From Methylococcaceae bacterium (GTDB lineage Bacteria; Pseudomonadota; Gammaproteobacteria; Methylococcales; Methylomonadaceae), in the NCBI GenBank assembly GCA_013140465.1, contig JABFST010000255.1, positions 1 through 12,594 on the forward strand: a DNA stretch of 12,594 bases, given 5' to 3'. Both the position numbers and the translations under genes were made by a program. Of this stretch, positions 2,503-12,594 are shown piece by piece. Under the pieces are notes generated by a model. That model saw nothing but the letters and a program-made list of their open reading frames with translations. It was not told the DNA's origin and did not search any database. Every line of letters starts with the position of its first letter. The stretch's first letter is position 1.

Positions 2503-2543
2503 ACTTGTGTATAACGACGAGCGCGGAGCGTGGGAACGATAAA
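2503..2543. repeat. 41-bp glgX-downstream flank, copy 1
   Basis: Ungapped similarity to 5552-5592 (both begin ACTTGTGTATAACGA and end ACGATAAA). In this copy the flank joins directly to the glgX-like segment at 2544. In the full glgX locus 53 extra bases (5593-5645) intervene. Its right half matches the GCGGAGCGTGGGAACG arm of the palindrome at 2177-2199. Confidence 0.7.
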
Positions 2544-2888
2544 CCCTAAACACCTCTTACGCACTTGCTAAGATGTTTAGCGGGCAACCAATACCACTGT
2601 GGTTCTTGCCGCGACGAAATAATGGTGTGGGTCGGTTAATGCGGGCATAGCGGCTTCGTCCATAATGGCGAGGTCGCCGGGCAAGTTGGTGTCTACAAAT
2701 CGATACCAGCGCTGGTTGTTTAAGTTGGGCAATTGAAAATTTGCGCCTTGCCAATGGGCGTTGGCGATCAGATAAACATCAGGGGCGACCCCTAATGCCG
2801 AGGTGCCAAAAAAATGCGCGGCAATTTGGCGCGATTCATATCCCCAATCGGGTGCGTTGAGGTGTTGCCCGTGCCAATGGATTTGTAG
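2544..2888 (-). pseudogene. glgX: Truncated second copy of glgX 3' end
   Basis: The segment aligns without gaps to 5646-5990, with ten substitutions in 345 bp. It covers the last 103 codons of glgX plus 33 bp after its stop. The minus-strand frame is open from the break at 2888 to TAA at 2577-2579. It has no start of its own and no catalytic part, since the active-site region of GlgX lies further upstream in the full gene. Within coding sequence there are seven isolated differences, all at third codon positions and all synonymous. One double change turns DEAHMP into DEAAMP. The break coincides with a palindromic element at 2885-2970. No product is expected. Confidence 0.92.
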
Positions 2889-2970
2889 GGCCGTAGGGTG
2901 CGGTGAAGGAAGGGAACCGCATCGTTCGCGATTGATGCGGTTCGTACCTCACCGCATCCTACGCGCTACA
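2885..2970. repeat. Long palindrome at the glgX-copy break
   Basis: Inverted arms TGTAGGGCCGTAGGGTGCGG (2885 onward) and its approximate complement ending CTACA at 2970 form a long hairpin. A nested GGAACCGCATC/GATGCGGTTC stem lies inside. It abuts the truncated glgX copy on one side and the first 115-bp tandem unit on the other. Similar GTAGGGTGCGGTGA palindromes are common dispersed elements. Confidence 0.75.
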
Positions 2971-3540
2971 AGACTAGTTGTTGCAGGAAGCTTCCCAGCA
3001 GACAGTTCCAAACAGCAGTTAAGTAGCAAGTCCTTGATGTACTTGTGCTTACTCTGACTTTTCCGAATTACAGTTAAATAAGGCTAGGACTAGTTGTTAT
3101 AGAAAGCTCCCAGCAGACAGTTCCAAGCAGCAGTTAAGTAGCCAGTCCTTGATGTACTTGTGCTTACTCTGGCTTTTCCGAATTACAGTTAAATAAGGCT
3201 AGGACTAGTTGTTATAGAAAGCTCCCAGCAGACAGTTCCAAACAGCAGTTAAGTAGCAAGTCCCTGATGTACTTGTGCTTACTCTGACTTTTCCGAATTA
3301 CAGTTAAATAAGGCTAGGACTAGTTGTTGTAGAAAGCTCCCAGCAGACAGTTCCAAACAGCAGTTAAGTAGCAAGTCCCTGATGTACTTGTGCTTACTCT
3401 GACTTTTCCGAATTACAGTTAAATAAGGCTAGGACTAGTTGTTATAGAAAGCTCCCAGCAGACAGTTCCAAACAGCAGTTAAGTAGCAAGTCCCTGATGT
3501 ACTTGTGCTTACTCTGACTTTTCCGAATTACAGTTAAATA
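2970..3540. repeat. Tandem array: five copies of a 115-bp unit
   Basis: Units begin at 2970, 3086, 3201, 3316 and 3431, with period 115 bp (116 in the first, which has an extra T in AGCTTCCC). The last unit ends at 3540 without the final AAGGCT. Units 3-5 are almost identical, while units 1 and 2 carry a few private changes; the first is the most diverged at its left end. Within a unit CAGTTAA(G/A)TA occurs twice, and AAGTAGCAAGT can pair imperfectly with ACTTGTGCTTACT. The period is not a multiple of three and each frame is closed, so the array is not protein coding. There are no variable spacers, so it is not a CRISPR. The function is unknown. Confidence 0.93.
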
Positions 3541-3545
3541 AAAAA

Positions 3546-5012
3546 CTAAACCCAATAAGGCAAGTACACTGCAAATTTTTTCGAACTTTCTGTATCTTTA
3601 AGCTTGATCCTACCTTCACTCAAAGCTTCCTTAATAATAAGGGAAACCTGCGGACTTTGCTTATCGTGCATACCAAAGCGTTTTCTTAGTGAACTGTTAT
3701 TCATCCCGCCCGCCCCATAATACTGAATGATGCTGTGCTGATAGCAAGCCTCAATCCGTTCTTCTCGCGTCATCTCGGCAAAAGTCTTTGGACTGTACAT
3801 AATCACCTTGAAAGAACTATCGGTTTCTTCCATTTTCAACGGTGGCAGCCCGAAAAGCTCAATAGCGGTAATCGCTTTTTCAAAGCCTGAGCCACGCTCC
3901 TCGCAAATAGTAAACCGCCTAAACGCAGCGGCTAACACTTCGTTGCGTGACTCAGGTGTTGCCCGTATCAGGCGATCAATTTTTTTGCCAGGTAACAACT
4001 TGCCGGGGTTGGAAATTTCAATGCGATCCGCAAAAATCTCAATCATCGGCCCGCTACCGCGAATCGTAAAATCCTGATGGATCAAGGCATTCGCAATCAG
4101 TTCGCGCAAAGCAATTTCTGGATAAACTGACGTGTCACTACGCAAAGCGTGTTTGATAACCTCGCTGCCCGGCAAAATGCCTTTTAAAAACTGAATCAAA
4201 CCCTCAAAGCCAATGGCATAACCTTTATTGTCGGGATATTCCTTGCTGCCCTGCGTTTTGGTTTTGCCTTCATACTGAACCACTCGCACCGCTTTACGCG
4301 CCAAACCATCAAACTGCGACAAATTGTGCGCCGCTGCCAACGCGCCAAAATTGGTAATGTAAAAACCTTTGCCGTCCACATCCTCAATCATCTTTTCTTG
4401 TTGCAGCCAATAAATGATTTCCTCAACACTGGTCGGCGTGGGCTTTTTCAACAGGCCATGAATGCCGGCAATATCCAACAGCGTCATGACCTCGGTGGAG
4501 TTTTTCAAGGTCGAAGCATGTAACTCTTCAAATACGGGCGTTTTGCTGTTTAACATCAACGCCCCGACATCTTGCCGCGAAGCTTTGCGCGTTGTGCCGC
4601 CACTACGGATAAAGCTGTCTTCGATAGACTTATGGGCAAGATGCACAGGTTTTACCGCACTTTCCTTGAGATACACAAATAACAACGCGCAATTATCAAA
4701 CAGCTCGATAGCATGATCCATATTGACTAAAGGCTCAACGCCAGCGCGGCATAGATTAGCCAATTGCTCGACAATGGTATCGGCATCCGCTTTATCAATA
4801 CCCACTACCTTGCCTGTTTTATCTTCCAGACCAAACACTAGAAAACCACCCCCGGGTAAATTGGCAAAGGCACACAAATGTTGGCACAACTTATCCTTTT
4901 TCGGCGACAGATTGGATTTCCAGTCCAATTCATTCAGCTCCTGCGGCACCGGCGACAGACTGTTCTGTAAATAAGCGATGGCTTTGGTGATCCAAGGTTT
5001 CATCATAATCAC
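3546..5012 (-). CDS. AlbA_2 (Schlafen-type) domain protein with GHKL-like ATPase domain
   Basis: A 488-residue cytoplasmic protein. Residues about 24-145 form an AlbA_2 (Schlafen-type, nucleic-acid binding) domain with ELDWKSNLSPKKDK, AFANLPGGGFLVFGLED and a G-VVGI turn. Residues about 296-400 form the HATPase_c_4 module, with an N box RELIANALIHQDF (303-315), DRIEISNPGKL (329-339) and ERGSGFEKA. Residues about 415-485 look like a winged-helix tail. Proteins of this layout are annotated as ATP-binding or putative transcriptional regulators (COG2865-like); the biochemical role is mostly undefined, and some occur near mobile or defence genes. The start is GTG 5010-5012 with GGAG five bases upstream; ATGs at 5004-5006 and 5001-5003 are alternatives. 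It lies 15 bp after the YgiT-type gene, probably cotranscribed. The frame is fully intact, unlike most of the region. Confidence 0.87.
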   Translation of the reverse strand: MIMMKPWITKAIAYLQNSLSPVPQELNELDWKSNLSPKKDKLCQHLCAFANLPGGGFLVFGLEDKTGKVVGIDKADADTIVEQLANLCRAGVEPLVNMDHAIELFDNCALLFVYLKESAVKPVHLAHKSIEDSFIRSGGTTRKASRQDVGALMLNSKTPVFEELHASTLKNSTEVMTLLDIAGIHGLLKKPTPTSVEEIIYWLQQEKMIEDVDGKGFYITNFGALAAAHNLSQFDGLARKAVRVVQYEGKTKTQGSKEYPDNKGYAIGFEGLIQFLKGILPGSEVIKHALRSDTSVYPEIALRELIANALIHQDFTIRGSGPMIEIFADRIEISNPGKLLPGKKIDRLIRATPESRNEVLAAAFRRFTICEERGSGFEKAITAIELFGLPPLKMEETDSSFKVIMYSPKTFAEMTREERIEACYQHSIIQYYGAGGMNNSSLRKRFGMHDKQSPQVSLIIKEALSEGRIKLKDTESSKKFAVYLPYWV

Positions 5013-5027
5013 TTACACTCCACGCAA

Positions 5028-5285
5028 TTAAAGCAAAGAAATTTCAGCAGCAACTGTCGGGGCCGTGAAATTAACCATTTCTAAAAAAAAGCCGCGTTGT
5101 AATGCTTTCTCGGCTTGACTGAGCAAGGCCTGATTGATTGCCGAACCCAGAAAAGCCTCGCCGCAGTTATCGCATATATTGGCGGGAACCTGTTTAAACA
5201 CCAAAACGCTTTCATTGCGCTCCAAGGTGACTGTAGTAAAACCTTTTTCAGTATAACCGTGCTGGCAAATCGCACATTTCATCAT
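5028..5285 (-). CDS. YgiT/MqsA-type zinc-finger antitoxin
   Basis: An 85-residue protein with two CxxC pairs, KCAICQ at residues 3-8 and ICDNCGE near 37-43, which together would bind one zinc. The VPANICDNCGEAFLG segment is the signature of YgiT-type zinc-finger proteins (the N-terminal domain of MqsA). It is followed by a helical stretch (INQALLSQAEKAL) and a short tail, with no complete helix-turn-helix domain. Family members pair with DUF4258 (MqsR/RelE-like) toxins. Here a toxin tail overlaps the start by four nucleotides (ATGA). AGGAG five bases upstream of the ATG at 5283-5285 supports this start. The toxin is truncated, so this is an orphan antitoxin, now possibly serving or simply preceding the AlbA_2 gene. 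Confidence 0.85.
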   Translation of the reverse strand: MMKCAICQHGYTEKGFTTVTLERNESVLVFKQVPANICDNCGEAFLGSAINQALLSQAEKALQRGFFLEMVNFTAPTVAAEISLL

Positions 5286-5416
5286 GTTCTCCTAGCAAAA
5301 TTATCAGTCCCTTTTAAGGGGCTGGGTTCGTAAACCGTTACGATAACTAACTGCTGTTCCGGTTTATTAATAGCAACGACAACATGTAATCGGCGCTGCT
5401 CGGTGTTTGTCAACAT
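5282..5416 (-). pseudogene. DUF4258-type toxin, C-terminal remnant
   Basis: The minus-strand frame ending at TGA 5282-5284 contains RRLHVVVAINKPEQQLVIVT followed by VYEPSP and a basic end (NFARRT). This matches the C-terminal strand pair and tail of DUF4258 family toxins that sit upstream of YgiT antitoxins. Upstream of about 5416 the frame continues only through a palindromic repeat, so the N-terminal half of the toxin, roughly 50 residues, is missing. A 76-residue frame starting at 5512 therefore mixes repeat and toxin and is unlikely to be a functional RNase. The toxin stop and antitoxin start overlap, preserving the old operon junction. Confidence 0.77.
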
Positions 5417-5548
5417 AGCCTTGTTGGCCGGAATAAGCCGCTTTGAGCGTAAGCGAAAAGTGGTGTTTCCGGCAAATCGTGGGCGCGGTGTGCCGGAAAC
5501 GGCTGTTTTCACTGGCGTTCAAACAGCCTTATTCCGGCCTACAAGGCT
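5417..5548. repeat. 132-bp palindromic element truncating the toxin
   Basis: Inverted arms at 5417-5449 and 5516-5548 (AGCCTTGTTGGCCGGAATAA against the complement of TTATTCCGGCCTACAAGGCT) enclose a nested stem, GTTTCCGGCA...TGCCGGAAAC. Nearly the whole element can fold into one hairpin. It has no coding capacity of its own, so it looks like a MITE-like or REP-like element. It starts exactly where similarity to the DUF4258 toxin ends. Confidence 0.83.
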
Positions 5549-5551
5549 TGG

Positions 5552-5592
5552 ACTTGTGTATAACGATGAGAGTAGAGCTTGGGTACGATAAA
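5552..5592. repeat. 41-bp glgX-downstream flank, copy 2
   Basis: Partner of 2503-2543. Between here and the glgX stop at 5679 there is only short AT-rich sequence. I see no convincing GC stem plus T run that would serve as a glgX terminator. Confidence 0.7.
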
Positions 5593-5678
5593 AACCAGAA
5601 GTCACCCACAAGTTGGCTTTTCATCATCTTTTCACAGTAAATCCACCCTAAACACCTCTTCCGCACTTGCTAAGATGT

Positions 5679-7766
5679 TTAGCGGGCAACCAATACCACG
5701 GTGGTTCTTGCCGCGACGAAATAATGGTGTGGGTCGGTTAACGCGGGCATATGGGCTTCGTCCATAATGGCGAGGTCGCCGGGCAAGTTGGTGTCTACAA
5801 ACCGATACCAGCGTTGGTTGTTTAAGTTAGGCAATTGAAAATTTGCGCCTTGCCAATGGGCGTTGGCGATCAGATAAACATCAGGGGCGACCCCTAATGC
5901 CGAGGTGCCAAAAAAATGCGCGGCAATTTGGCGCGATTCATATCCCCAATCGGGCGCGTTGAGGTGCTGCCCGTGCCAATGGATTTGTAGCCCCAAGCCA
6001 TCTTTAATGGCAAAGCTGTCATGCCGTAATAAAGGATGGCTTTTTCTAAAAGCAATCAGCAGCCGAAAAAACCGGAATAGGCTTTGGTTGATTGCCAAAT
6101 CCCGCCAATTCAGCCAACTCATGGCGTTGTCCTGGCAATAAGAGTTGTTGTTGCCTTGTTGGCTTCTGCCAAACTCATCGCCCGCCAAAATCATCGGCAC
6201 GCCGCGTGAAACCAGCAATAAGGTCGCCAAGTTGCGCACTTGTTGGGCGCGTAAGCGGGCTATGTCCGGGTCGGCACTCTCGCCTTCGGCACCACAATTC
6301 CAGCTGAGGTTGTGGTTGTCGCCATCGTTGTTGTGTTCGCCGTTGGCCCAATTGTGCTTGTCGTTATAACTGACCAAATCGCGCAAGGTAAAGCCGTCAT
6401 GGCTGGTTACGAAATTGATGCCATGACCTGGGTCTCGACCGAATTGGTACAAGTCGGCACTGCCTGACAAGCGGTTTGCCAAGCGTCCGACAAACCCGGG
6501 GTCGCCTTTAACAAAATGCCGCACATCATCCCGAAAATGTCCATTCCATTCCGCCCAGCGCCCCCAGTTAGGAAAGCTGCCCACTTGGTATAAACCTGCC
6601 GCATCCCAAGCTTCGGCAATTAATTTGGTGCTGGCAAGGATCGGGTCGGCGGCGATTTGTTCCAATAATGGCGGACTATCCAGCACGCGGCCTTGTTGGT
6701 CGCGGCCTAAAATAGAGGCCAAATCAAAGCGGAAGCCATCGACGTGCATGTCCATCACCCAATAGCGCAAACTGTCCATAATAAAATTGCGTACATAAGG
6801 CTGGTTGCAGTTGATGGTGTTGCCGCAACCGGAAAAGTTCATGTAATGTCCGTGTTCGGACAGCATATAGTAAGTGCTGTTGTCGATGCCTTTAAATGAA
6901 TAAGTGGGGCCACGGTGGTCGCCTTCGCCGCTGTGGTTGTACACCACGTCCAAGATCACTTCAATGCCCGCAGCATGTAAGGCTTTGACCATATCCTTAA
7001 AGTCGTTGATTTCGCTGCCGAGCGCGTCACCCGACCCATAAGCCGCTTTCAGGGCAAAAAAGGACAGGGGATGATAGCCCCACAGATTATGCAACGCCGC
7101 TCCGGTTTCTGGGTGGCTACGCGTGTTGTCCAGCTCATCAAACTCAGTGACGGGCAACAATTCGACGGCAGTGATGCCTAGTTCAAGCAAATAGGGGATT
7201 TTTTCAATCAGACCCCGAAAAGTGCCGGGATGCTGGGCGTGCGCGGACGGGTCTTGGCTAAAGCTACGGATGTGCAGTTCGTAGATGATGGAATCGGCTA
7301 AGGGGCGGTTTAGCGGTTGGTCGAATTCCCAATCGTAGTCTTTAGGCACTAACACCGCACGCCGAAACGGGCTTTTGGAATGCCCGGCATCCGCCCATTT
7401 GCCCCTACCGTTTAAGGCAATCGCGTAGGGGTCGGCAACGATGACGGTGTTGTCATAGCGATGCACTTGGTTGTGCGGACCATCGATTTTATAGCCGTAT
7501 TGAATACCTGGGTTGAGTCCGGCGACAAACACATGCCAGACATCGCCCGTGCGGTTGAGTTGGCTGTCCAAAGGGAAGGCGGCAATTTCTTGGTCTTCGT
7601 CGGGTAGAAAAAACATCAGCATCACGCGGGTGGCATGGCGGGCATAAATCGAAAAATTGATGCCGCCACGTTCCACAGTTGCGCCAAAAGGCAAGGCGTG
7701 CCCCCGTTGGATACTAAAATCTTCGCTAATTAAGGCAAGAAATTTTGTTGCTGAAGCCGATGCCAT
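5679..7766 (-). CDS. glgX: Glycogen debranching enzyme (isoamylase type)
   Basis: A glycoside hydrolase family 13 enzyme that cleaves alpha-1,6 branches of glycogen, or of limit dextrin after phosphorylase, in the cytoplasm. From this start it has 695 residues, a usual GlgX length. An N-terminal CBM48-like domain (about 20-120: HALPFGATVERGGINFSIY) precedes the barrel with WGYHPLSFF, DVVYNH (273-278), GFRFD with nucleophile D348, AEAWD with acid/base E385, and SHDG with D457. DKHNWANGEHNNDG is also typical of the family. I prefer ATG 7764-7766 because AAAGG lies seven bases upstream; ATG 7782-7784 would add six residues but has no clear ribosome site. It stands alone, with no other glycogen gene adjacent. 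A truncated copy of its 3' end lies 3.1 kb downstream. Confidence 0.96.
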   Translation of the reverse strand: MASASATKFLALISEDFSIQRGHALPFGATVERGGINFSIYARHATRVMLMFFLPDEDQEIAAFPLDSQLNRTGDVWHVFVAGLNPGIQYGYKIDGPHNQVHRYDNTVIVADPYAIALNGRGKWADAGHSKSPFRRAVLVPKDYDWEFDQPLNRPLADSIIYELHIRSFSQDPSAHAQHPGTFRGLIEKIPYLLELGITAVELLPVTEFDELDNTRSHPETGAALHNLWGYHPLSFFALKAAYGSGDALGSEINDFKDMVKALHAAGIEVILDVVYNHSGEGDHRGPTYSFKGIDNSTYYMLSEHGHYMNFSGCGNTINCNQPYVRNFIMDSLRYWVMDMHVDGFRFDLASILGRDQQGRVLDSPPLLEQIAADPILASTKLIAEAWDAAGLYQVGSFPNWGRWAEWNGHFRDDVRHFVKGDPGFVGRLANRLSGSADLYQFGRDPGHGINFVTSHDGFTLRDLVSYNDKHNWANGEHNNDGDNHNLSWNCGAEGESADPDIARLRAQQVRNLATLLLVSRGVPMILAGDEFGRSQQGNNNSYCQDNAMSWLNWRDLAINQSLFRFFRLLIAFRKSHPLLRHDSFAIKDGLGLQIHWHGQHLNAPDWGYESRQIAAHFFGTSALGVAPDVYLIANAHWQGANFQLPNLNNQRWYRFVDTNLPGDLAIMDEAHMPALTDPHHYFVAARTTVVLVAR

Positions 7767-8161
7767 AACAAAACCTTTATTCATCAGAAAACTTGGGGGT
7801 GTTGATTAACGGCAGCTCTTCAGCAACGTTAATTCACTTACACTTTTCAGGGCATTATATACCTTTACCTTGTGGGCATGGATAACTCAATTGGCGTGCC
7901 GAATCATTTGCTTTAGAGGCTATAAAAGCATTATAAAAAAAAACCTCCCAAGGCTTTCTTGATTTTTTAAGTCATTGATTTTAAATTTTTGTGGCATAGA
8001 CTTTAGCGTCGTAGGCTAGGCTAAAGCGTCTCCTACATGAATACTTTAACAGCCTCTTTGGCGAGGCAATAATTGGCTGGGGTGTTTGGGTATGCGCAAG
8101 TTTATCCATTATGCCCAGTTATCTTTTGTAATGAATAGACCGTTAATTAAGGGGAAATAAG
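7767..8161. other. Divergent intergenic region with a small hairpin repeat
   Basis: AT-rich sequence between glgX (minus) and the VOC gene (plus) that must carry both promoters. No confident -35/-10 pair stands out. A hairpin at 7999-8036 combines CTTTAGC/GCTAAAG and GTAGG/CCTAC stems and resembles a short dispersed repeat. AAGGGG seven bases before 8162 is the ribosome site of the next gene. Confidence 0.5.
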
Positions 8162-8554
8162 ATGAAATCTAATCCGGTTGCTTGGTTTGAAATTTATGTG
8201 CAAGACATGGAACGCGCCAAGGCGTTCTACGAAGCGATGCTCGACGTTAAGCTTGAAAAAATGCCACCCCCAACAAGTGAAATGAATATGGACATGTGGA
8301 GCTTTCCGACCGACAAAGAGGCTGCGCCCAACCTGTATGGCGCGTGCGGGATGCTGGTAAAAATGGAAGGCGTGCCTTCTGGCTTGGGCGGTACCTTAGT
8401 GTATTTTGCTTGTCAGGATTGCGCCGTAGAAGCCGCGCGTGCCGCCGAAAATGGCGGCAGTATTTTTAAAGGAAAAACGCCGATAGGTGAGCATGGTTTT
8501 TTTGCTTTAGTCCATGATACCGAAGGTAATTTGATAGGCTTGCATTCTATGTGA
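8162..8554 (+). CDS. VOC (glyoxalase/bleomycin resistance fold) family protein
   Basis: A 130-residue single-unit protein. The N-terminal PVAWFEIYVQDMERAKAFYE has the strand, then D-x-R-A-x-x-FY pattern that starts the beta-alpha-beta-beta-beta unit of vicinal oxygen chelate proteins. The second unit, LVYFACQDCAVEAARAAENG, is followed by GEHGFFALVHDTEGNLIGLH, the usual metal-site strand ending in a D-x-E-G-N-x-x-G-L motif. E10 and E122 sit where metal ligands are normally found. The substrate cannot be told from sequence; similar small proteins are often annotated as lyases or glyoxalases without test. The start is supported by AAGGGG seven bases upstream. The gene is convergent with priA, 68 bp away, and appears monocistronic. 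Confidence 0.88.
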   Translation: MKSNPVAWFEIYVQDMERAKAFYEAMLDVKLEKMPPPTSEMNMDMWSFPTDKEAAPNLYGACGMLVKMEGVPSGLGGTLVYFACQDCAVEAARAAENGGSIFKGKTPIGEHGFFALVHDTEGNLIGLHSM

Positions 8555-8622
8555 TGCTGCCAAGGCTGTAATGGCGATGGGTTTACTACACAGGCATCGC
8601 ATTCGCTGGCGGGGCAATGGCT

Positions 8623-10896
8623 TTAATACAAATCCACCGGATCCACATCCAAGGACCAACGGACTTTTTTGGCTTGTTTAAGTTTGGCAAGCGCGGGGAT
8701 GAGTTTGTCTAAAAACTTATGCAGTTCTTTACGTTTGTGGTGTTGGAACAGCAGTTGGTAGCGGTGCCAGCCCGCGCGTTTTGCCATTGGTGCGGCGACT
8801 GGGCCTAGCACTAGCGTATGGTTGTTATTGTGCTGCGCTAGCAAGAGTTTGACGGCCTCAAAAAAAACCGCCGGGGCATCGGCATCTTGGGCTTCGACCC
8901 GCAGCAAGGCTTGATAACTAAACGGCGGCAAGGCGGCGGCTTTGCGTTCGGCGAGCGCGGTTTGGGCAAAGCGTTGGTAGCCGTCGCGGATCAGCGTGGT
9001 CAATAAGGGATGTTCGGGTTGGCGGGTTTGTAACACCACCAACCCCGGTTTGTCGGCACGTCCGGCGCGTCCCGCCACTTGTACGACCATTTGCGCGAGT
9101 TTTTCGGGGGCATGGAAATCAATGCTGAACAAGCCGCTATCGACATCCAAAATCGCCACTAAGGTGACGTTGGGAAAGTGGTGGCCTTTCGCCAACATTT
9201 GCGTACCTAAAATAATATCGACTTCGCCTTGGTTAATTTGGTGCAGATAGTGTTCTAGGCTGCCTTTGCGCTGGGTGCTGTCGCGGTCTAGGCGCACGCG
9301 GGTATGGTAGGGGAATAAGTTAGCCAAAGCCTGTTCCACGCGTTCTGTGCCTAGGCCCAAGGCATTGAGTTTAGGGGTTTTACAGGCGGGGCAGTGGCTG
9401 GGGATGCGCTGTTCCGTACCGCAATGGTGGCAGCGCAAACACGCATCTTGGGCATGGATCACCAAATTGGCATCGCAACGCAGACAGCGTGCCACCCAAC
9501 CGCAGCCATGACAAATCAGGGTAGGGGCAAAACCCCGGCGGTTTAAAAACAACAGCACTTGTTCTTTTTTCGCCAAGGTCAGGCGCATTTGCGCCAGCAA
9601 GGGTTCGGACAAGCCTTCGTGCATGGTTTTATTGCGGATGTCCAATAACTGCAACACCGGGGCAATGGCGGTGCCGGCGCGTTGCGGCAAGTGCAGCCAT
9701 TGGTAGCGTTGCAGCATGACATTATGCAGGCTTTCTAAGGACGGTGTTGCCGAACCTAACAGCACCGGAATATGCAGGAGTTTGGCGCGGACGACGGCGA
9801 TGTCGCGGGCGGAAAACCGAAAGCCATCTTGTTGTTTAAACGACGCGTCATGCTCTTCGTCCAAAATAATCAGCCCCGCCCTGGGTAATGGCGTAAACAA
9901 GGCCGAGCGCGTGCCGAGCATGATCTGGCCTTGGCCTTGCTGCATGTGCAGCCACGCCGCTGCGCGTTGCTGGTCGGTGAGTTTGGAATGTGATAAGGCG
10001 ATGCTGACATTAAAGCGTTGCTGAAAACGTTGTTCAAGTTGTGGGGTCAGCGTGATTTCCGGGACCAGCACCAAGACTTGCTGCCCACGCGCCAACACCG
10101 CATGGATAATTTGCAGATACACTTCGGTTTTGCCGCTACCCGTTACGCCTTCCAGCAAAAACACGCCAAATTGTCCTAGGCTGGCGCAGACCGCATCGAC
10201 AGCGGCTTGTTGCGCGGGGTTGCTGGATAAGGCCGGGGTTTTGGTCAGGGTTTGCGGGGCAGTGCTAGTCAGTGGTTTGCTGCTGACTTGTAGCAGTTGT
10301 TTGTTGATGAGTTGTTGCGCCGCCGCTTTCCAGTTGTCGTGCTGGGCATTAAGGCTAGACGCTGTCATGCCATCGGCTTGGGCTTGCAAGGTTGCCAGCA
10401 GCTGTTGTTGTTTGGGGCTGCGGCGCAAGCTTTCGCTAGTGCTTGCAATGCCTAAGGCAGTCAGTTGGTAGTAGTTTTCACTCGGCAGTTTAACGGCTTT
10501 GCCTAGGCGCAGGGCCAACGGGAAAGCCGTGCTGATAACCACGCCTAAGGGATGGTGGTAATACTGGCAAGCCCACAGCAACAAACGCAAGTCTTTAGGG
10601 CTTAGCAGCGGTTGGGCATCTAAGACGCGCAGCACGCGTTTTAACTTGTCGGCGGTAATATCGCTGTGCTGGCTGATTTCGACCAACACCCCGATTTTTT
10701 TGGCAATCCCCCTGCCAAACGGGACTTCCAGACGGATGCCGGGCTTAAGCGTGCTGTGGTCTGTGGCTACGGGGGCGAGATAATCGAAGAGTTGGTAATA
10801 GGGTTCTGGGATAGCGACTTTAACAATCAGTTCACCGCTAGGGTGCAAATTAGGCATAGGTGTGGGTGGTGGTTTTGGCGGGCTATTCGCTATCAT
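8623..10896 (-). CDS. priA: Primosomal replication restart helicase PriA
   Basis: A 3'-to-5' DNA helicase that recognises stalled forks and reloads the replicative helicase via PriB/DnaT. It has 757 residues (E. coli 732). The N-terminal 3'BD domain (about 22-125: VKVAIPEPYYQLFDYL) is followed by Walker A GVTGSGKT (250-257), DEEH (346-349), motif III LLGSATPS, and a zinc-binding insert with C462, C465, C471, C474, C489, C492, C502 and C505. Their spacing equals that of E. coli PriA. Motifs LGTQMLAKGHHFP and QVAGRAGRA (606-614) follow, with a C-terminal KVRWSLDVDPVDLY. The start ATG overlaps the end of the acyltransferase gene by 14 nt; a later ATG at 10855-10857 would remove 13 residues, and neither has a strong ribosome site. 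It is the last gene of the minus-strand operon. Confidence 0.97.
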   Translation of the reverse strand: MIANSPPKPPPTPMPNLHPSGELIVKVAIPEPYYQLFDYLAPVATDHSTLKPGIRLEVPFGRGIAKKIGVLVEISQHSDITADKLKRVLRVLDAQPLLSPKDLRLLLWACQYYHHPLGVVISTAFPLALRLGKAVKLPSENYYQLTALGIASTSESLRRSPKQQQLLATLQAQADGMTASSLNAQHDNWKAAAQQLINKQLLQVSSKPLTSTAPQTLTKTPALSSNPAQQAAVDAVCASLGQFGVFLLEGVTGSGKTEVYLQIIHAVLARGQQVLVLVPEITLTPQLEQRFQQRFNVSIALSHSKLTDQQRAAAWLHMQQGQGQIMLGTRSALFTPLPRAGLIILDEEHDASFKQQDGFRFSARDIAVVRAKLLHIPVLLGSATPSLESLHNVMLQRYQWLHLPQRAGTAIAPVLQLLDIRNKTMHEGLSEPLLAQMRLTLAKKEQVLLFLNRRGFAPTLICHGCGWVARCLRCDANLVIHAQDACLRCHHCGTEQRIPSHCPACKTPKLNALGLGTERVEQALANLFPYHTRVRLDRDSTQRKGSLEHYLHQINQGEVDIILGTQMLAKGHHFPNVTLVAILDVDSGLFSIDFHAPEKLAQMVVQVAGRAGRADKPGLVVLQTRQPEHPLLTTLIRDGYQRFAQTALAERKAAALPPFSYQALLRVEAQDADAPAVFFEAVKLLLAQHNNNHTLVLGPVAAPMAKRAGWHRYQLLFQHHKRKELHKFLDKLIPALAKLKQAKKVRWSLDVDPVDLY

Positions 10897-11527
10897 GCCG
10901 CGTTAAGCAATACGGTAACAGTTCGGCAAAGGCTAGGCTTAGGGTGCGCGTAAACGCTACGGAGTCGGTGCTTTCGGGCAGCGGGTCGCCGACGATCACA
11001 TCACAATTAAACGGCACTAATAAGGCTTCGCCTTTGGGTAGGGCGCGGCCCAGGCCGTGCATGACCACGGGGGTCACTTTAATGTCCGGGCGGTCTTTGA
11101 GCAAATAAAACAAGCCTTTTTTGATTTTGCTGATTTTTTCGGGGCTGCCCCGGCTGCCTTCGGGGAACAGGATTAAAATGTCGCCGTTATCCAATGCCTG
11201 ATGGCAAGTTGCAAACAATTGTCCGGGTTCGGTCTGCCCGCTGCGGTTAAACGGCACTATATTTAAGCAATGCACCGATAGCCAAGCCAAGCAGCGGTTG
11301 CTTAAAAAATAGTCGGCGGCAGCAACGGGCCGGACTTTAGGTAGGCTATGCAGCGGAAACAGGCTCATTAACACTAGTGCGTCCAAATGGCTGTTGTGGT
11401 TGGCGGCAATAATTGCGGGGCCGGTGTGCGGCAGTTTTTCGCGTCCGCGTAGGTTAATGCCCAACATAAGCAATGCCAAGGGTTTGATGATGAGGGCAAA
11501 TACTGCAATCTTAAGCACTTTGTCCAT
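10883..11527 (-). CDS. PlsC-type lysophospholipid/1-acylglycerol-3-phosphate acyltransferase
   Basis: A 214-residue membrane-associated acyltransferase. The N-terminal hydrophobic stretch (about 5-24) anchors it. The catalytic NHNSHLD motif gives H44 and D49 (HX4D); block II is VPFNRSG (91-97), block III FPEGSRG (121-127) with glutamate E123, and block IV VTPVVMHG (151-158). The family acylates lysophosphatidate, or related lyso-lipids, from acyl-ACP or acyl-CoA. The start ATG at 11525-11527 overlaps the cdsA-like stop by one base (TGATG); a longer open frame to 11770 lies inside cdsA and has no acyltransferase character. Being coupled to a CDP-diacylglycerol synthase, it probably supplies or remodels phosphatidate. 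The main plsC may be elsewhere in the genome. Confidence 0.92.
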   Translation of the reverse strand: MDKVLKIAVFALIIKPLALLMLGINLRGREKLPHTGPAIIAANHNSHLDALVLMSLFPLHSLPKVRPVAAADYFLSNRCLAWLSVHCLNIVPFNRSGQTEPGQLFATCHQALDNGDILILFPEGSRGSPEKISKIKKGLFYLLKDRPDIKVTPVVMHGLGRALPKGEALLVPFNCDVIVGDPLPESTDSVAFTRTLSLAFAELLPYCLTRHDSE

Positions 11528-12465
11528 CAATACGCCACATAATACAAAAAGTGAAAAAACAGCGGGGCGGTGTAAATCAGGCTGTCCAATCTGTCCAGTA
11601 TGCCGCCATGCCCTGGGATTAGGCTGCCGCTGTCTTTGATGTTGAGATCCCGTTTGACGGATGACAGCACGACATCGCCGACAAACCCCGCCAAGCCGAT
11701 AATCAGCCCTGCCACCCAGCCTTGGCTTTGGTTTAAAGGTGTCAGCAACGGCGCGGCGAAACCCGCGCACACGGTAGTGGTCAACACCCCGCCGACAAAG
11801 CCTTCCCAGGTTTTGTTGGGGCTGACTTTGGGGATGATTTTATGTTTGCCCAAGCATTTGCCCCAAATATATTGGCACACGTCATTAAATTGGGTGGTAA
11901 ACAATAAGAACAGCACGAGACCCATCGCACCTGCATTGGGGTTTTTGACGGGCAAGGTGAGTAGGTAGGCGATGTGGCTTACTGCAAACACCATCAGCAT
12001 GACCGCCCAATGCAATATGCCCGCTGAGCGTATAAAGCCTTGGGTGTCGCCTATCAATACCATGCGCATCGGCAGAAACAAAAACACATAGACTGGGATA
12101 AATATGATGAACATGCCATACCAGCCAATGCTGACCCAGTAGTATTGCACGGGGATAGCCAAATATGCCCAAAAAATCACGCGTCGGTCGGTCATGCGGG
12201 TCGGGACTATCGACAAGAATTCTTTTAAGGCCAAAAAGCTTAAAAAACCAAAAAACACAATTGCGGTTTGGGTGTTGCTGGCAAGCACCAAAAACAACAG
12301 GCCAACGATCCACCACCAGGATTGGATGCGTAAGCGCAGTTCGGTGTAGTCGGTGCTGGGGTTTTTAGCCGCCAACAACAAACGGCTGGCACTGGCAAGC
12401 AGCAACAAGCCCACGACGGCGAGCATCGCGGCACTGGCGTGAGGGGGGATATTAAGCGCGGTCAT
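11527..12465 (-). CDS. Phosphatidate cytidylyltransferase (CdsA/YnbB-like)
   Basis: A 312-residue integral membrane enzyme that makes CDP-diacylglycerol from phosphatidate and CTP. About eight hydrophobic segments are visible, beginning at residues 12-32. The hallmark SPNKTWEGFVGG (215-226) and the C-terminal signature SVKRDLNIKDSGSLIPGHGG (269-288) continuing ILDRLDS are both intact, with the key aspartates of the DSG and DRLDS segments present. The N-terminal half and the gene order (acyltransferase neighbour, upstream membrane gene) resemble the YnbB branch more than the housekeeping CdsA beside uppS/dxr. The ATG at 12463-12465 overlaps the upstream gene by 14 nt. It is translationally coupled to the acyltransferase by a one-base overlap. 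Confidence 0.93.
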   Translation of the reverse strand: MTALNIPPHASAAMLAVVGLLLLASASRLLLAAKNPSTDYTELRLRIQSWWWIVGLLFLVLASNTQTAIVFFGFLSFLALKEFLSIVPTRMTDRRVIFWAYLAIPVQYYWVSIGWYGMFIIFIPVYVFLFLPMRMVLIGDTQGFIRSAGILHWAVMLMVFAVSHIAYLLTLPVKNPNAGAMGLVLFLLFTTQFNDVCQYIWGKCLGKHKIIPKVSPNKTWEGFVGGVLTTTVCAGFAAPLLTPLNQSQGWVAGLIIGLAGFVGDVVLSSVKRDLNIKDSGSLIPGHGGILDRLDSLIYTAPLFFHFLYYVAY

Positions 12466-12594
12466 GGCGTTCCATAAACCGATAGGCGGTTAAGGTGCGG
12501 CGGTATAAGGTCACACAACACCCTAGGTTGATAATCACCAAGGCTACCAATATGGCATAGTGGTTGGGGGTAAAGTACCATTCTGCGGCACTGG
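12452..12594 (-). CDS. C-terminal end of a membrane protein, possibly CDP-alcohol phosphatidyltransferase
   Basis: Only the last 46 codons lie inside the window, and the gene continues past the right edge. The frame reads AAEWYFTPNHYAILVALVII and then a hydrophobic run, followed by a basic tail (YRRTLTAYRFMERHDRA) ending at TAA 12452-12454. This is one membrane helix with a positive cytosolic end. The 14-nt overlap with the cdsA-like gene shows it belongs to the same operon. In ynb-like clusters the gene before the CdsA homologue encodes a CDP-alcohol phosphatidyltransferase, and a C-terminal transmembrane helix fits. No catalytic motif is visible in this fragment, so identity is an inference from context. 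Confidence 0.5.
   Translation of the reverse strand, partial: SAAEWYFTPNHYAILVALVIINLGCCVTLYRRTLTAYRFMERHDRA

Follow-up and report, generated by a model that had tools for sequence, protein, structure and literature searches.

A 3′ remnant of glgX bounded by interspersed repeats in a methanotroph genome

A 345-bp piece of the glgX 3′ end lies at 2544–2888 of the 12,594-nucleotide stretch of DNA analysed here (the window); it codes for no GlgX and no function is inferred for it. The reading that we favour, with modest confidence, is that it is the non-functional 3′ remnant of a second glgX copy, which would have been longer during most of its divergence from the intact gene and was cut by a repeat-associated rearrangement. 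The differences between fragment and gene are nearly all synonymous, and both ends of the fragment lie at the edges of repeats in a genome that is crowded with them.

Results

A truncated copy of glgX in the window

The intact gene, the fragment and the repeats around them are as follows.

5679–7784, minus strand: intact glgX, a glycogen debranching protein of 701 aa assigned by TIGR02100 and Pfam; the parental or sister gene of the fragment
2544–2888, minus strand: 3′-terminal glgX fragment, a pseudogene, identical to 5646–5990 at 335 of 345 positions
2577–2888, within the fragment: coding part, the last 104 glgX codons with the stop included; about 33 bp of 3′ flank make up the rest
2205–2543, no strand assigned: interspersed repeat D+A, 339 bp, its right edge forming the fragment's left boundary
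2886–2968, no strand assigned: interspersed inverted-repeat element B, about 83 bp, its left edge forming the fragment's right boundary, with 2–4 bases of overlap
2972–3541, no strand assigned: tandem array of a 115-bp unit, 4.9 units at 97%, adjoining element B
5417–5592, no strand assigned: a different repeat of the interspersed kind, made up of palindrome C and an A-like tail; it lies downstream of the intact glgX, 53 bp from the part homologous to the fragment

Intact glgX scored 688 bits against TIGR02100 (glgX_debranch; cut-off 640.9) and carries the Pfam domains CBM_48, Alpha-amylase and ISOA1-3_C. The fragment has the same orientation, at a distance of 3102 bp. The earlier note had described a gapless 345-bp alignment to the 3′ end of glgX, and this was confirmed: in an ungapped comparison with an offset of 3102, only 10 of the 345 positions differ, and the pair was recovered with E = 4.5e-166 in a search of the own genome. 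A pseudogene fragment born of partial duplication is expected to show such close similarity to a stretch of an intact gene elsewhere in its genome. The homology starts at 2543 and stops at 2888, with mismatches at 2889 and 2890. Since the fragment retains only 104 of the 702 glgX codons (stop codons counted), the original protein cannot be translated from it. Its first 52 codons contain no ATG, GTG or TTG start, and neither do the 20 open codons that precede them.

The differing positions are 2559, which lies downstream of the stop, and 2598, 2640, 2650, 2651, 2700, 2712, 2727, 2853 and 2865 in the coding part. The seven isolated coding differences all fall on third codon positions and are synonymous, and the adjacent pair at 2650–2651 turns His678 of the gene (CAT) into Ala (GCT) in the fragment, exactly as had been noted earlier. 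None of the 10 differences damages the reading frame. Loss of constraint would place differences at all codon positions; here seven of the eight coding events are synonymous.

Beyond the fragment, a search of the own genome, which is 83% complete, brought up no additional part of a glgX of this type. Contig 65 of the same genome carries part of a second GlgX that is 50% identical. Of 34 other genomes searched within the genus, three have a glgX of the type at 5679–7784 (75% or more), and most of the rest have a match of about 44–48%. No Rfam family matched the window at gathering scores. A literature search listed no title on the locus, though published work on it may exist.

Selection during the divergence of the two copies

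From the synonymous pattern it had been proposed that both sequences diverged under selection, as alleles or paralogues, before one of them was cut short. Part of the argument held. The synonymous share expected under neutrality in the codons of the fragment is 0.22–0.28 (about 0.27 was used), and the probability of at least seven synonymous events among eight is then P = 0.0006 for pure drift in the fragment. The His/Ala site itself varies freely among homologues: of 40 aligned sequences, the window's own protein and three that fall short of the site were set aside, and the remaining 36 have N in 15, A in 5, Q in 4, K in 3, D and E in 2 each, and H, G, W, S and R in 1 each. Divergence wholly by neutral drift in a truncated copy is thus unlikely.

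The other part, that both copies were under selection, does not follow. A working gene filters its own changes too, so that synonymous differences alone do not prove function on both sides. Among single-difference codons of relatives the synonymous share is 69–85% (27/39, 35/46, 38/46 and 22/26). With half of the changes assigned to the gene, the same probability becomes 0.03–0.07 at this share and 0.05–0.15 at 80–100% synonymous; with three quarters it is 0.09–0.27 and 0.20–0.56, and with all of them 0.24–0.66 and 0.50–1, each range reflecting how strict the selection on the gene is taken to be. Only eight coding events enter the test. Most of the divergence probably took place under selection, which may have acted on the gene alone.

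These values bear on the main alternative, that the fragment was truncated at birth, by a partial duplication, and that much of the divergence arose later in the working gene under selection. Such a history is possible, though we regard it as doubtful; its standing depends on how many of the changes fell on the gene, which was approached by comparison with relatives.

Relatives of the gene and placement of the changes

Among the closest proteins (the best 120 of 7999 scored), the cluster of the gene itself comprises four sequences from one contig, and the next hit is 79% identical. When the 103 aa of the fragment were used as a protein query, the one candidate scored was 63% identical, so that this search gave no second copy of the fragment. 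A DNA search of 41 genomes, the own included, returned one weak match (75% over 88 bp) besides the two local copies. Orthologues with 75–79% protein identity are 57–66% identical to glgX across the compared region. Thus no close relative with this type of glgX was found in the genomes searched, and those compared are at most 66% identical.

At the nine coding sites that differ, agreement with the gene versus the fragment is 3:3, 3:2, 3:3, 5:0, 3:3, 3:1 and 2:1 in the seven nearest relatives and 3:4, 5:2 and 5:1 in three farther ones. The counts appear to lean towards the state of the gene, in relatives that are distant and not independent of each other.

A tree of the kind that the earlier note had suggested was built from the final 103 codons, and 10 relatives out of 71 loci (L053 to L061, and L063) were included; L062, whose contig ends short of the region, and L026, which by its coordinates is on the same contig as L061, were omitted. 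Gene and fragment are paired with 98% ultrafast bootstrap. The changes between them were left unplaced because the relatives are too distant. With all positions the branch lengths are 0.002 for the gene and 0.027 for the fragment, but this asymmetry is not significant: when the gene branch has to carry all the change, 1.5–1.7 log-likelihood units are lost, and every split of the changes lies within 1.7 units. With third positions alone the branches are 0.040 (gene) and 0.031 (fragment), and the whole likelihood range is 0.13 units. If the all-position estimate were right, most change would lie on the branch of the copy and truncation at birth would be unlikely; the nearly flat likelihood across the share of the gene leaves room for it.

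Repeats at both ends of the fragment

A new observation is that each end of the fragment lies no more than a few bases from the border of an interspersed repeat, the two repeats being unrelated. On the left, 13 of the 16 tail alignments of 34 or more bases stop at 2536–2543, and the other three overrun the edge to 2548–2555. The repeat that ends here, D+A, has a copy at C302 (88.8% across 339 aligned columns, short of about 20 bases) and lies at C63 in two pieces, corresponding to 2213–2353 and 2417–2536, at 97%. Its portion at 2205–2485, about 280 bp, has at least 11 near-full copies elsewhere in the genome at 89–97% identity. On the right, the breakpoint at 2888 is also where element B has its left edge. 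Near-identical copies of B occur at C204 and C64 (98% each), C255 (95%) and C199 (93%), over 81–84 bp; in these four the match begins at 2885–2887 and the flanks are unrelated. The 115-bp array beyond B was found at no second place in the own genome. No clear target-site duplication was seen at the repeats. The breakpoints fit a rearrangement at, or a deletion beside, mobile or recombining repeats.

The 41 bp to the left of the fragment (2503–2543) resemble 5552–5592 near the intact gene at 35 of 41 positions (85%), and 53 bp (5593–5645) lie between the latter and the homologous part of glgX. Both observations of the earlier note were reproduced. Its conclusion, that the flank had moved together with the gene, was not supported. 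The segment 2503–2543 is the tail of the 339-bp repeat and has at least 20 further matches in the genome, some of them partial, among the 40 of 74 candidates scored; since it is a genome-wide repeat, the similarity alone is no evidence that the flanks moved together. The segment 5552–5592 belongs to the same family of tails, but the repeat in front of it is another one, the palindrome at 5417–5548. At least nine other places in the genome outrank 5552–5592 by E-value as matches to 2503–2543 and two tie with it; among the matches listed, seven of the nine are also higher in identity. The flanks differ at 6 of 41 positions and the glgX copies at 10 of 345 (Fisher P = 0.004, a test picked after the data had been seen); compared with the 33 bp of 3′ flank alone, with one difference, P = 0.12. 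The better reading is that the two flanks are two separate repeats. In favour of joint movement, each of the two glgX ends has a tail of this family next to it, with side and orientation shared; if the repeats are independent, this leaves as explanations only chance in a region rich in repeats, or recombination at them.

Palindrome and tail occur jointly at C63 of the relative G002 (93.5% over 170 bp). The 132-bp palindrome is present on at least seven other contigs of the own genome at 94–99%, and at no fewer than eight places in G002 at 87–94%.

Repeats at junctions also raise the possibility of an assembly artefact, in which the glgX end of a strain variant was joined at repeats into the contig of a metagenome bin. 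The source assembly, of which the window is contig 186 (507 contigs, 83% complete, 2.5% contaminated), and the divergence of 3%, which is of strain level, would allow it, as would the exact repeats of 60 bp within B common to C204 and C64 and the 84 bases of the left repeat (2417–2500) identical to C63. The junctions themselves, however, lie beside more distinctive bases. Across seven loci compared, the longest exact stretch shared with 2471–2560 is 26 bp; C63, identical over 2417–2500, is not one of the seven. The left part of B differs from C204 and C64 at two sites, and no other glgX fragment of the same type, such as the absent 5′ part, was found in the genome. We consider an artefact improbable.

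Very improbable is a third history, in which an integrative element (about 2889–5645) entered the glgX 3′ end, gave the gene a new end swapped in from the glgX of another strain, left the old one on its far side, and was later stripped of its integrase and filled with repeats: the gene end does recur 3.1 kb downstream, in unchanged orientation and beyond the interval, with mostly synonymous differences and accessory-type genes between (Schlafen/AlbA_2, YgiT-type zinc finger), but the interval ORFs scanned (two against Pfam and three against NCBIfam, shorter overlapping ORFs excluded) gave no integrase match, among the listed matches to the interval within the genus, with eight candidates scored per genome, nearly all are its repeats, plus one match of 69% that falls within the Schlafen-type gene, and the fragment ends sit at repeat edges. 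If it were true, glgX would be a protein-coding integration site of a kind that is not known to have been described.

Other features of the window

At 8143–12552, a glyoxalase-like gene, priA and the acyltransferase/cdsA blocks are adjacent in the window and match three separate contigs in G002. The contig end at 12431–12594 overlaps contig 443 (99% over 164 bp), perhaps as an unjoined assembly overlap or a strain variant. Two 33-bp pieces that are 91% identical, 545–577 and 1124–1156, lie at lower coordinates than the fragment.

Discussion

The preferred reading places divergence first and truncation after it. With seven of eight coding events synonymous, the divergence either preceded the truncation or happened in a working gene. 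The second glgX could have been a duplicate of older date or a related strain's version of the gene, and it would still have been longer while most of the roughly 3% divergence arose. The cuts would then have been made by the repeats, with D+A on the 3′ side and B on the 5′ side; the probable mechanism is a deletion adjoining an inserted element. What would be the rest of this longer copy did not turn up in the genome, at 83% completeness. The fragment has the look of an unremarkable by-product of genome rearrangement.

According to the account of prophage e14 in PMC6379469, this element inserts at the 3′ end of icd, provides the gene with a new end and leaves a pseudo icd′ of 163 bp, a situation like the present one in that a duplicate of a gene 3′ end, in the same orientation, is left at a distance. 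The present locus differs from the case described there, as no integrase or prophage gene was found among the ORFs scanned in the interval and the fragment ends at repeat edges.

Partial gene duplicates and pseudogene fragments are known from repeat-rich bacterial genomes. The present locus is a small example from a methanotroph, in which interspersed repeats bound gene scraps and probably cut them. Its synonymous pattern is unusually clean for a dead copy, on eight coding events; in being truncated, lacking a usable start, lying near its parent gene and being bounded by repeats, the glgX scrap resembles such fragments.
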